From Cloacibacterium sp. TD35 (GTDB lineage Bacteria > Bacteroidota > Bacteroidia > Flavobacteriales > Weeksellaceae): a stretch of DNA of 64,000 bases. Location of the stretch: positions 2,114,001 to 2,178,000 of the forward strand of contig NZ_CP104850.1 of assembly GCF_028864635.1 (NCBI RefSeq). The letters run 5' to 3'. A program made the translations under genes and the position numbers. Below the pieces are notes generated by a model. It made no database searches, was not told the origin of the DNA, and was given only the letters and a program-made list of their open reading frames with translations. Shown piece after piece: positions 8,474 through 32,105 of the stretch (positions within the stretch are counted from its first letter, which is position 1; every line of letters starts with the position of its first letter).

Positions 8474-8559
8474 ATGAAATCGCCATAATTAGCAAACACA
8501 AACGCTAATGAAGAATCAGCGATTGCATATGACCCTTAAAAAACAATAAATAACTACAT
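8474..8559 (+). promoter_or_regulatory. Structured leader element, copy A (shared with 32017-32105)
   Basis: Begins ATGAAATCGCC just after the preceding stop codon. A basal stem AATCGC (8478-8483)/GCGATT (8519-8524) encloses a hairpin ATTAGC (8488-8493)/GCTAAT (8504-8509). CATATGACC follows, then an A-rich stretch and CTACATATGAAA at the main start. A mini-frame ATG-ACC-CTT-AAA-AAA-CAA-TAA lies at 8529-8549. A copy with the same order, a different inner-stem sequence and similar length (86 against 89 nt) precedes the RND adaptor gene. No known riboswitch is recognised. Confidence 0.6.
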
Positions 8560-9381
8560 ATGAAATCAGCACTTATTATTTCTGTATATAAAAATACTGC
8601 CGATTTAGCCATCGTTTTAAAATCTGTAGAACAGCAAAGTGTTTCTGACTTTATGACTGTGATTTCCGAGGATGGAAACAGTACAGAAATGGCTGATTTT
8701 GTCAAAAATTACAGTGGGAAATTAGATTTAATTCACTTAACTCAAGAAGATCTAGGTTGGCAAAAAAATAAAGCGCTCAACAATACCATCAAAACGATTG
8801 ATGCTGATTATTTTATTTTTATAGATGGCGACTGTGTTTTACACCCAAATTTTATAGAAAATCACTTAAAATTTGCTCGAGAAGATAGAATTTTAGCGGG
8901 TAAAAGAATCAAGCTAGGTCCTAACTATTCTGACCAATTAAGAAATGCAAAAACTGTTTCTGAGTTTGCAAAACTGATTCTCCCCGAGATAAAATCCATC
9001 AAAAAAGATGGTGCAAAATTCTATGAAGAAGGAATTTATATTTCACCAAAATCTATATTTTCTTTCATTGCGTACCTTAGAAAAATGAGCCAAATAAAAG
9101 GTTGTAATTTTTCTTGTTATAAGTCAGCATTGGAAAAAATAAATGGTTTTAATGAAGATTATGTTTTGCCCGCAATTGGTGAAGACATTGACTTAACTTG
9201 GCGTTTTGAAGGAATGGGTTATCACTTATATTCGCTTAGAAATTTTGCAGTACAATATCACCTTTATCACAAAGAAAATTGGAGCGACCAAAGTGTAAAT
9301 GAAGCCATTATGAAAGAAAATCAAAGGCTAAAAAGATACGTTACGCTTAATGGTTTGAAAAAATTAGAAGAAAATACATAA
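8560..9381 (+). CDS. Family 2 glycosyltransferase
   Basis: A 273-aa GT2 enzyme distantly related to the preceding one. MKSALIISVYKNTADL opens the fold, SEDGNS carries the first Asp, FIDGDCVLHPNF is the DxD motif near residue 93, and NGFNEDYVLPAIGEDIDLTWR holds the ED motif typical of the acceptor side. It follows the first GT2 gene after 88 bases filled by a structured leader element. Both genes end at a strong bidirectional terminator. Probably surface polysaccharide or LPS core synthesis; the substrate is unknown. Confidence 0.85.
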   Translation: MKSALIISVYKNTADLAIVLKSVEQQSVSDFMTVISEDGNSTEMADFVKNYSGKLDLIHLTQEDLGWQKNKALNNTIKTIDADYFIFIDGDCVLHPNFIENHLKFAREDRILAGKRIKLGPNYSDQLRNAKTVSEFAKLILPEIKSIKKDGAKFYEEGIYISPKSIFSFIAYLRKMSQIKGCNFSCYKSALEKINGFNEDYVLPAIGEDIDLTWRFEGMGYHLYSLRNFAVQYHLYHKENWSDQSVNEAIMKENQRLKRYVTLNGLKKLEENT

Positions 9382-13520: not shown

Positions 13521-14510
13521 ATGAAAAATCTATTTATTGGAATTGATATTTCCAAAGAGGTATTTGATTATTGTGCTATTGATGAGCAAAACCAAATAAT
13601 CATCAATAAACAAGTTGCCCCAAATTCCAAAGATGGAATTGAAAAATTTTGTCAAAAACTTGACCAATTAAAAGAGTATTCTATCTGGATTGCCATGGAA
13701 CACACTGGGCATTATGGAAGTTTACTATGTTATGAGTTCTCTATTCGTCAACTTTGTTATTCCTTAATCAATCCTTTAGAAATGAAACATGCTACTGGAA
13801 TTAGCAGAGGAAAAACTGATGCAGTAGATGCTTGGAGAATCGCAAGTTATGCTTTAGCTAATAAACATAAACTAAAACCATACATATTACCAGCAAAAGA
13901 ACTTAGAAAACTCAAAATATTAATGAGTTCTAGAGAACGTTTGGTTAAAGTCCATGTACAAATGAAAAACGGTTTAAAAAGCTTAGAAATAGAAGCAAAA
14001 ATAATCTCTCTAAAGTCTCACACTCAAGAAATGGAGCGAATCATTCTTCAAATAGAAAAATCTATATTGTCTACGGAAAAACAAATGAGAGAAATTATTA
14101 TACAAAACGATGAATTGAAAAACAACTTTCAGAAAATAACTTCTGTTATTGGTGTAGGAGAGATTACTGCTATAAAATGCATTCTTGAAACGGATAATTT
14201 TACCAAATTCAACAACCCAAGAAAGTTCAGTTGTCACTGCGGTTTAGCCCCTTTTAAATATCAATCTGGAAGCAGTATTAGAGGGAAAACTAAAACAAGT
14301 TCGCTCTGTGACAAATCCCTTAAAAGCATCCTTTTTAAAGCTGCTTGCTCAGCTATACAGCATGACCCTCAACTGAAAAATTATTACTTAAGAAAAACTT
14401 CTGAGGGAAAACACAAATTATCTGTAATAAACGCTGTAGCAAGTAAAATTGTGCTAAGAATTTTTGCCGTATCTAAAAGAAAACAAAATTTTGTAAAACT
14501 TTTTAACTAA
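13521..14510 (+). CDS. IS110-family transposase (bridge-RNA-guided recombinase)
   Basis: A 329-aa enzyme expected to cut and rejoin target and donor DNA under guidance of the bridge RNA. Residues 1-~160 form the RuvC-like DEDD domain: Asp9 in GIDISK, Glu60 in AMEHTGHY, and Asp100 and Asp103 in GKTDAVDAWR. Residues ~205-295 form the Transposase_20 domain (ITSVIGVGEITA, FNNPRKFSCHCGLAPFKYQSGSS), with the likely serine nucleophile within Ser249-Ser252. A coiled-coil linker lies between. The frame is intact and of full family length. A five-codon frame at 13499-13516 ends just before its ATG. Confidence 0.95.
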   Translation: MKNLFIGIDISKEVFDYCAIDEQNQIIINKQVAPNSKDGIEKFCQKLDQLKEYSIWIAMEHTGHYGSLLCYEFSIRQLCYSLINPLEMKHATGISRGKTDAVDAWRIASYALANKHKLKPYILPAKELRKLKILMSSRERLVKVHVQMKNGLKSLEIEAKIISLKSHTQEMERIILQIEKSILSTEKQMREIIIQNDELKNNFQKITSVIGVGEITAIKCILETDNFTKFNNPRKFSCHCGLAPFKYQSGSSIRGKTKTSSLCDKSLKSILFKAACSAIQHDPQLKNYYLRKTSEGKHKLSVINAVASKIVLRIFAVSKRKQNFVKLFN

Positions 14511-30927: not shown

Positions 30928-32016
30928 CTATTTTAAAGTAACTTTTGCACCGTTAAACAATTTTCCTTCTGCTGAAATGATGTACTGGTCATTAGCGTTA
31001 AGACCTGATAAAATTTCTACTTGATTACCGAAAGTTTTACCCACTTTTACCCATCTTAGAACTGCGGTATTTTGTGAACTTATGGTGTAAACTCCTGTTA
31101 ACTGTCCGTTTTCTACAATTGCAGACTTCGGAATCATTACGCCATCTTGAAAATCCTGATTCACATTTCCAGAATTTTTGAAAGGAAACTGAACATTCAC
31201 AAACATCCCTGGTAATAAATCTTTAGAAGCAGGAACATTGATTTTCACTAAGTATTGTCCACCTGTATTTGTTGAAGATTTGCTGATTTCTGAAACCGTA
31301 CCCGAAACTTCTTTATTGGTAGATTTTAAAGTTACTTTTACAGGCATTCCAGATTTTAAAAGGGTTATATTCTGTTCAGAAACTAAAACTTGTGCCTGTA
31401 AAGCTCCTGGAGATTCTATAGTTAACAAAGGCATTCCTGGACTTGCCATATCACCTTGACTGGCATATTTCGCAGTAACTGTACCAGAAATAGGTGCCGT
31501 AACATTGGTATATCTGTACTGAGCGTTTACTTCATTTTTCATTTGCTGAGCAGCTTGTAAACCAGCTTGAGCCATTTCGTAACGCGCTCTCATATCATCT
31601 AATTCTTTTTGAGAAGCTGATTGATTTTTGTATAAATTTTGAAATCTTTCAAAATCTTTTTTCGCAATATTATAATTGGCTTGTGCTTGAGCTATGTTCG
31701 CAGAAGCCTGTCCGCCTTTTGCTTGAATATCTGTACTATTGATGCTTACTAAAAGTTGACCTGCATTTACATACTGACCTACTTCTACCTGCATCGCTGT
31801 AATGTACCCCATCATTCTAGTAGAAACATTTACAGAATTTTTAGCTACTAATTTTCCACTTGCTGTGGCATTAGAACCTACTGCATTGGTCGCAGATTTA
31901 TTTACGGTAACCGCGATAGATTTGTCATTTAATTCTGCAGATTTATTTTCGTCTGAAGAACAACTTGCAAGGAATACGCTTCCTAAAAATAATGCTGAAT
32001 AAATATATGTTTTCAT
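30928..32016 (-). CDS. RND efflux periplasmic adaptor, lipoprotein
   Basis: A 362-aa membrane-fusion protein. The signal ends in LASC (Cys19), so it is lipid-anchored. The order is barrel-sandwich half (KNSVNVSTRMMGYITAMQVEVGQYVNAGQLL), a coiled-coil hairpin (residues ~100-165), second lipoyl half (TNVTAPISGTVTAKYASQGD), beta-barrel, and membrane-proximal domain. It bridges the permease and the TolC-like channel. Its start is preceded by a structured leader shared with a glycosyltransferase gene. AGAT-type repeats fill the gap to the permease. Confidence 0.93.
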   Translation of the reverse strand: MKTYIYSALFLGSVFLASCSSDENKSAELNDKSIAVTVNKSATNAVGSNATASGKLVAKNSVNVSTRMMGYITAMQVEVGQYVNAGQLLVSINSTDIQAKGGQASANIAQAQANYNIAKKDFERFQNLYKNQSASQKELDDMRARYEMAQAGLQAAQQMKNEVNAQYRYTNVTAPISGTVTAKYASQGDMASPGMPLLTIESPGALQAQVLVSEQNITLLKSGMPVKVTLKSTNKEVSGTVSEISKSSTNTGGQYLVKINVPASKDLLPGMFVNVQFPFKNSGNVNQDFQDGVMIPKSAIVENGQLTGVYTISSQNTAVLRWVKVGKTFGNQVEILSGLNANDQYIISAEGKLFNGAKVTLK

Positions 32017-32105
32017 ATGTAGATTTTATTTTTATTTAAAGGTCATATGTAATCGCCTAACCTTCTTTGAAGTTTATGTTTCAACTTTAATATTGGCGAT
32101 TTCAT
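32017..32105 (-). promoter_or_regulatory. Structured leader element, copy B (shared with 8474-8559)
   Basis: On the minus strand ATGAAATCGCC opens a basal stem AATCGCC/GGCGATT (32095-32101 with 32051-32057), enclosing an inner hairpin with AAGTT/AACTT arms. CATATGACC follows, then an A-rich stretch and CTACATATGAAA at the start codon. The mini-frame ATG-ACC-TTT-AAA-TAA lies at 32032-32046. It fills the gap between the TolC-like gene and the adaptor gene, as copy A fills the gap between two GT2 genes. Confidence 0.6.

Follow-up and report, generated by a model that had tools for sequence, protein, structure and literature searches.

The stretch of DNA considered here (hereafter the window) is 64,000 nucleotides long and comes from the genome of Cloacibacterium sp. 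TD35 (G000; 2.6 Mb, single contig). It holds two copies of a short structured element, each flanked by genes on the same strand and each running into the start codon of the gene that follows it. Copy A begins directly after the stop codon of an upstream GT2 gene and ends in the ATG with which the GT2 gene at 8560-9381 now starts, while copy B lies on the minus strand between an outer-membrane efflux (OEP) gene and an RND adaptor gene (30928-32016). A sequence-only reading of this DNA had described two look-alike structured leaders at these places, and both copies and their shared blocks were indeed found. The blocks identical in the two copies include ATGAAATCGCC, GCGATTnCATATGACC and CTACATATGAAA; the pattern AATCGCC-N10..40-GCGATT has three matches in the window against 0.02 expected, all of them falling in copies A and B (B being counted on both strands); and the folding z-scores are -3.0 for copy A and -3.9 for copy B. 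Neither copy matched an Rfam family at the gathering score, and a relaxed cut-off returned one chance-level match for each.

The limits of copy A, as set by empty sites of other copies, define an inserted unit of 86 bp at 8477-8562 on the plus strand, running from AAATCGCC to the new start ATG (8560-8562). The ATG immediately to its left (8474-8476) is probably the old start codon and target triplet, as an ATG stands here at other genes as well, whether the orthologous site is empty or filled. Within the unit, folding and covariation indicate that the 5' arm of a basal stem (AATCGC, 8478-8483) pairs with 8519-8524. An inner hairpin (ATTAGC/GCTAAT, 8488-8509) is variable among copies and absent from the shortest. 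The 3' stem arm, a free base and CATATG together make up a putative 13-base guide, GCGATT-g-CATATG (8519-8531), whose CATATG segment covaries with the right end, the CATATG at 8557-8562 that includes the GT2 start codon. The corresponding parts of copy B, all on the minus strand, are the left-flank ATG that would be the target triplet (32103-32105), an inserted unit of 89 bp (32102-32014), a putative guide, GGCGATT-a-CATATG (32044-32057), proposed from sequence and covariation, and the right end CATATG (32014-32019), which includes the start codon of the RND adaptor gene.

Empty and filled sites in sister species

Comparison of the same genes across sister species indicates that the element is mobile DNA lying between a start ATG and the AAA codon after it, with its own last three bases restoring the start codon, because it is exactly absent from those genes in other members of the genus. 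An empty site NNATG|AAA corresponds to a filled site NNATG|AAATCGC-loop-GCGATT-n-CATNNG-ACC-(A-rich)-CNNATG|AAA, and the filled genes keep both their protein sequence and an ATG, their leader now being the element. Six genes (KIW, LLF, NLF, MKY, M13 and ETF) gave clean pairs of empty and filled sites in which the junction shows no other gain or loss. KIW is empty in G000 and filled in G002, G003 and G006, with flank identities of 40/40 on the left and 24-25/25 on the right, and LLF is filled only in G002 and empty in G003 and G005 (40/40 and 25/25). NLF is empty in G000 and filled in G003 (40/40 and 24/25); by eye, G002 is filled like G003, its row being left out of the computed comparison. 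MKY, a site of the AACACC type, is filled in G000 and G006 and empty in G002 (40/40 and 23/25 against G000). The M13 peptidase site and the ETF-beta site are both empty in G000, with flanks of 39/40 and 23/25 for the former and of 14/15 and 25/25 for the latter, where an indel lies farther left.

Copy B is present only in G000 among the seven genus genomes, and its site is nearly clean, G003 and G005 matching the excised G000 sequence except for one 1-base gap and three substitutions. PYI is likewise filled only in G000 of the seven, with flanks that permit only partial comparison, and the SDR site is filled only in G001, with flanks that fail to align. All five genomes with a matched GT2 gene carry copy A, leaving no empty counterpart among them, and the sites of copy A and of a further copy before a DUF2807 gene are kept in five genomes. 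In G002 and G006 (L120, L121), a different palindrome-containing stretch (CTCTGTGAACGC...TTCTCTGTG) stands upstream of the adaptor gene at the position of copy B. The sequence-only reading had also remarked on the preserved spacing from first to second ATG. The repeated ATG at both ends holds, but as a signature of insertion and not as a fixed leader length.

The DUF2807 (head GIN domain) copy, the third in G000 (C1:1321413-1321507, 114 bits), came from a near-match search, and a covariance model, R1, was built from it and copies A and B. R1 detected two G000 copies of a second sequence type (C1:941327 and C1:426288, E about 0.02), in which a stem AACACC/GGTGTT replaces AATCGC/GCGATT, and matched 16 of 40 relatives (E <= 0.1), including all seven genus genomes counting G000. 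The check that the sequence-only reading had suggested, a covariance-model search of flavobacterial genomes, thus yielded further copies not only in G000 but in about half of the sampled genomes of this large flavobacterial family: 108 of 197, from 10 of 33 genera, carry at least one match (E <= 0.01) in a survey whose stricter filters overlook G009 entirely. One exact pattern matched 18 named loci in Chryseobacterium, Epilithonimonas, Cloacibacterium, Flavobacterium and Aquimarina genomes and in an unclassified Bacteroidetes metagenome-assembled genome (MAG), among them a locus of Cloacibacterium rupense where the element precedes an SDR gene. Two exact element patterns matched zero viral contigs, and blastn of copy A gave zero plasmid or phage matches.

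Anatomy and placement of the element

Read on the gene strand, the left part of the element comprises the flank NATG, an A, the stem and a loop of variable length in which an inner hairpin is frequent; the right part continues with the complementary stem arm, a single free base and CATNNG, then in most cases ACC, followed by an A-rich stretch, CNNATG and AAA. The stem occurs as AATCGC, AACACC, AATCCCC and other versions. Element size is usually 83-90 bp, with about 50 to 120 bp seen, and the inner part is absent from the shortest forms (L046, L072, L076, L093). Across 87 distinct sites, the distance from guide to right end is 23-25 bases in 59, and the free base between stem and CATNNG is C in 37, G in 28, A in 12 and T in 10. 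A model in which the left arm is a self-primed copy of the right end was rejected, since an A adjoins the stem on the left, but mostly C, G or A on the right. In two loci from Aquimarina and the Bacteroidetes MAG (L188, L199), the loops hold what appear to be further A-rich nested inserts with a GACTCC motif.

The selection for RNA shape that had been suggested from copies A and B is borne out in so far as both stems covary, with double-sided changes in 14 of 15 modelled stem pairs and a covariation score of 0.242 against 0.087 in shuffles, on an alignment that had been fitted to the tested structure. The pairing between CATNNG and CNNATG, which is not included in the model, covaries as well (0.191 against 0.075; none of 500 shuffles as high; 0.005-0.048 in slid versions), the partners being CATATG/CATATG, CATCTG/CAGATG, CATAAG/CTTATG, CATTTG/CAAATG and CATGTG/CACATG. 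The CAT of CATNNG is complementary to the target ATG. At guide positions 4-5, pairing with the right end is seen for 137 of 174 letters, compared with a mean of 88.7 and a maximum of 107 in 10,000 shuffles, a count over the 87 sites from which none was dropped and which therefore includes some chance matches. A strict scan that fixed neither target nor guide returned 66 elements; 64 of them sit at ATG, and the other 2, whose guide is GCC, at GGC. The same scan in five shuffles found 0, 0, 0, 0 and 1.

The element is not tied to genes. In G009, a pattern allowing 3 mismatches found 26 near-identical right ends, of which 12 lie ahead of an open reading frame (ORF) of at least 80 aa (6 of 16 distinct sites in a stricter count). 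Outside G009, 50 of 55 sites precede an ORF in that stricter count, and the five sites with a short ORF include two that end at the locus edge (L191, L258) and one tandem copy (L283); the stricter ORF counts, like the fold counts below, omit 16 of the 87 sites, whose stem does not start AATC or AACAC or whose tail falls outside 18-30 bases. ATGAAA occurs 137 times in the window and only 20 of these are ORF starts, so that ORF starts are preferred, either by target choice or through selection. When 25 distinct G009 copies were counted again, the right end was always CAGATG with AAA next (25/25), while the left triplet, in the 24 copies with a recognisable left end, is ATG in 19 and ACG, ACG, AAG, AAG and TTG in the other 5. 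This suggests that the left triplet belongs to the target and the right triplet to the element, although the non-ATG triplets may possibly result from later mutation.

Head-to-tail tandems sharing an ATGAAA junction were seen in G012 (L093), G015 (L075/L076), G025 (L037/L088) and G059 (L283), the first consisting of four short units of ~50 bp each in a row before a dehydrogenase-like gene. In 8 of 25 G009 loops (L134, L135, L136, L139, L146, L150, L151, L154), a second family is nested, with a guide GCC and ends GGC|AA; these GGC-type elements are in tandem in L136 and L151, and two of them pass the strict free scan.

A candidate guide and the rival explanations

We consider it likely that these copies form a family of non-autonomous mobile elements that insert between ATG and AAA of ATGAAA genes, directed by an internal guide and moved by an enzyme supplied in trans. 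Under this proposal, the 13 bases GCGATT-n-CATNNG would act as the guide. Apart from its free base, the guide is complementary to the junction CNNATG-A-AATCGC that would form when the element ends are joined, as they are in tandem copies; in a circular form, the joined ends would read CNNATGAAATCGC. The same guide is partly complementary to a target NATG-A-AA, which would explain the AAA found after ATG. A single guide could thereby allow the enzyme to align both donor ends and the target, and the right end, ...CNNATG, would hand the gene a new start codon with an A-rich element leader ahead of it. The form that we favour, as a conjecture, is a single-strand transposition in the style of IS200/IS605, except that the guide sits on the opposite side of the hairpin.

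A more tentative proposal, to which we would give somewhat less than an even chance, is that the family represents a new class of guide-programmed mobile element. The target would change with the guide (several ATG types and one GGC type), the enzyme would lie outside the Y1, IS110 and reverse-transcriptase families, and the start-codon version would be rendered harmless by returning an ATG and a leader. A literature search, with most subscription journals outside its coverage, turned up no account of an element that enters a gene at its start codon and rebuilds that codon. If the mobile-family proposal is right, elements of roughly 50-120 bp swap the leaders of unrelated genes at the start codon while leaving the protein untouched, and they would be among the smallest mobile elements that bear a guide. 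Target choice would be open to direct testing, because guide, right end and target can be altered one by one, and a class of shared leaders that one would otherwise take for regulatory RNAs would be accounted for.

Several observations weigh against the mobile-family proposal. Mobility is deduced here from the comparison of sites and not from present-day movement, and an exact comparison is prevented by divergent flanks at PYI, at SDR and in four of the six alleles of site B from other genomes. Some absences could reflect loss of the element by recombination between ATATGAAA-like repeats, but sites filled in one genome only (B, LLF and PYI) point to gains. Of the five measures of CATNNG/CNNATG covariation, two do not exceed shuffles, and pairing of the left flank with the guide past the ATG is only modest: 46 of the 87 sites have a base before the left ATG that pairs with guide position 4, against 31.4 expected (1 of 10,000 shuffles). 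R1 includes ATGAAA, so that its matches are biased to ATGAAA sites, and in a looser blind scan, 16 of 112 matches had other guides, against 2-5 in shuffles, most of them A/T-rich. Finally, the search for a mobilising enzyme came up empty, as genes for Y1, IS110 and reverse-transcriptase proteins fail to track the element. Nor did any element carrying an enzyme gene turn up, including among the 26 right ends of G009, the odd one of which (L156) has only ordinary neighbours in 3 kb of sequence.

The sequence-only reading had taken the element for a gene-regulatory leader, and one form of this explanation holds that translation is switched between two exclusive folds, in which either the basal stem forms or the start codon pairs with the guide, and that copies are kept for that purpose. 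The covariation of the stems and of the alternative pairing, which covers the start codon, would fit such a switch, as would the ORF that follows most sites outside G009 and an ETF-beta site that is occupied in another genus too (G014, L034). The predicted folds of 71 sites, however, are mixed rather than those of a uniform switch, with the basal stem formed in 56, the start codon fully free in 22 and the start codon paired with the guide in 17, and the inner domain is dispensable (L046, L072). The common gene theme that had been proposed as a check did not emerge, as the ten scanned downstream proteins have ten different functions (a DUF2807 protein, ETF, a short-chain dehydrogenase, a UvrD-type helicase, a ribosome-hibernation [S30AE] protein, an acyl transferase, an RpiB isomerase, an RND pump, an M28 peptidase and a cytochrome c), and nothing points to a ligand either. 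Exact absence from orthologous genes, at six clean sites and nearly so at B, speaks against a regulatory leader as the primary explanation, and the tandem, nested and ORF-distant copies argue in the same direction. We therefore regard a leader RNA maintained for regulation as very unlikely, while a secondary effect of the element on downstream translation is possible. An account that dispenses with a dedicated enzyme altogether, in which copies come and go by replication slippage or short-repeat recombination, would accommodate the short direct repeats at both ends and the tandem arrays, but not the dispersed exact insertions at unrelated genes or the 26 near-identical right ends of a single genome, and slippage does not require the guide to covary with the right end; we find this account scarcely credible.

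Candidate enzymes and known systems

Within the mobile-element explanation, a Y1 HUH transposase of the IS200/IS605 or REP-associated kind might move the element in trans. The passages of PMC6006769 that deal with IS200/IS605 describe a guide beside a subterminal hairpin that pairs with the left-flank target and with the last right-end bases, insertion taking place 3' of a short target. The rule proposed here resembles that one: the element too has a conserved, covarying hairpin and a short guide matching both its right end and its ATG target, and no terminal inverted repeats were seen. Y1 genes are moreover present in six of the seven genus genomes and in eight of nine other genomes searched. 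Against this, Y1 searches gave zero matches in G000 and G025, both of which carry the element, although the Y1-free G000 could mean only that its copies have stopped moving. Within 1.5 kb of Y1 genes (50 loci), no R1 match reached E <= 0.7, the single weak one (19.6 bits, E 0.72) lying near a broken Y1 copy in L169, and ten RAYT-like and 18 other Y1 genes adjoin different palindromes or none of the element type. On the gene strand, the geometry differs as well from that of IS608, ISDra2 and their miniature derivatives, which have a hairpin at each end with the guide 5' of its foot; in the element, one hairpin would serve both ends, with the guide 3' of it on the gene strand and 5' on the other strand, either of which may be the active one. 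Mobilization by a Y1 enzyme is thus possible but, on balance, doubtful. As far as the sequences go, the element acts like IS200/IS605 and like repetitive extragenic palindromes (REPs), but we do not file it under either, because G000 and G025 carry it without a Y1 match and the guide lies, on the gene strand, on an unexpected side of the hairpin.

The likeness to REPs and REPINs with their RAYT transposases consists in small, dispersed palindromes. In the element copies read, however, GT(A/G)G is missing from the hairpin foot, the RAYT-like genes encountered here are flanked by other palindromes with no credible R1 match in the 50 Y1 loci, and the element, at ATG|AAA, restores a start codon. 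The Bacteroidetes RAYT subclass (2.6) is credited, in the portion of PMC6006769 concerned, with "atypical secondary structures" of its own; the same portion presents the NQxxHH Y1 subclass as generally without terminal structures. Several NQxxHH-motif Y1 genes in our set (L098, L105, L158, L167, L180 and others) carry their own small palindromes in the flanks, for example CTCCGTAGGAGCG.

The left and right sequences (AAATCGCC... and ...CTACATATG), read by eye, are not inverted repeats, which sets the element apart from a miniature inverted-repeat transposable element of a DDE transposon, and the ATGAAA at both ends may be a target-site duplication or may reflect a right ATG and a left AAA that belong to the element. 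Rickettsia palindromic elements are also small and palindromic and insert into genes without destroying them, being translated inside ORFs; the present element, in contrast, sits at the start codon and leaves the protein unchanged.

In the bridge RNA logic of IS110 elements, a single guide can pair with the joined ends as well as with the target. The putative guide described here has the same double complementarity, and an RNA-guided recombinase of this kind, or a reverse transcriptase, could in principle move the element. IS110/IS1111 elements, with their bridge RNA or seekRNA, likewise use a noncoding guide for donor junction and target, but they encode a DEDD recombinase, for which the element is too short. 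PF01548 was found in 3 of 10 genomes and PF00078 in 1 of 10, and neither occurs in G002, G012, G015, G025, G056, G059 or G152, so that IS110 genes are absent from 7 of the 10; we consider either enzyme an unlikely agent. The window itself contains an IS110-family transposase gene (PF01548 and PF02371) at 13521-14510 on the plus strand. This gene has three further equally scoring matches in G000 and none in G002, which marks it as an insertion sequence that spread recently in G000.
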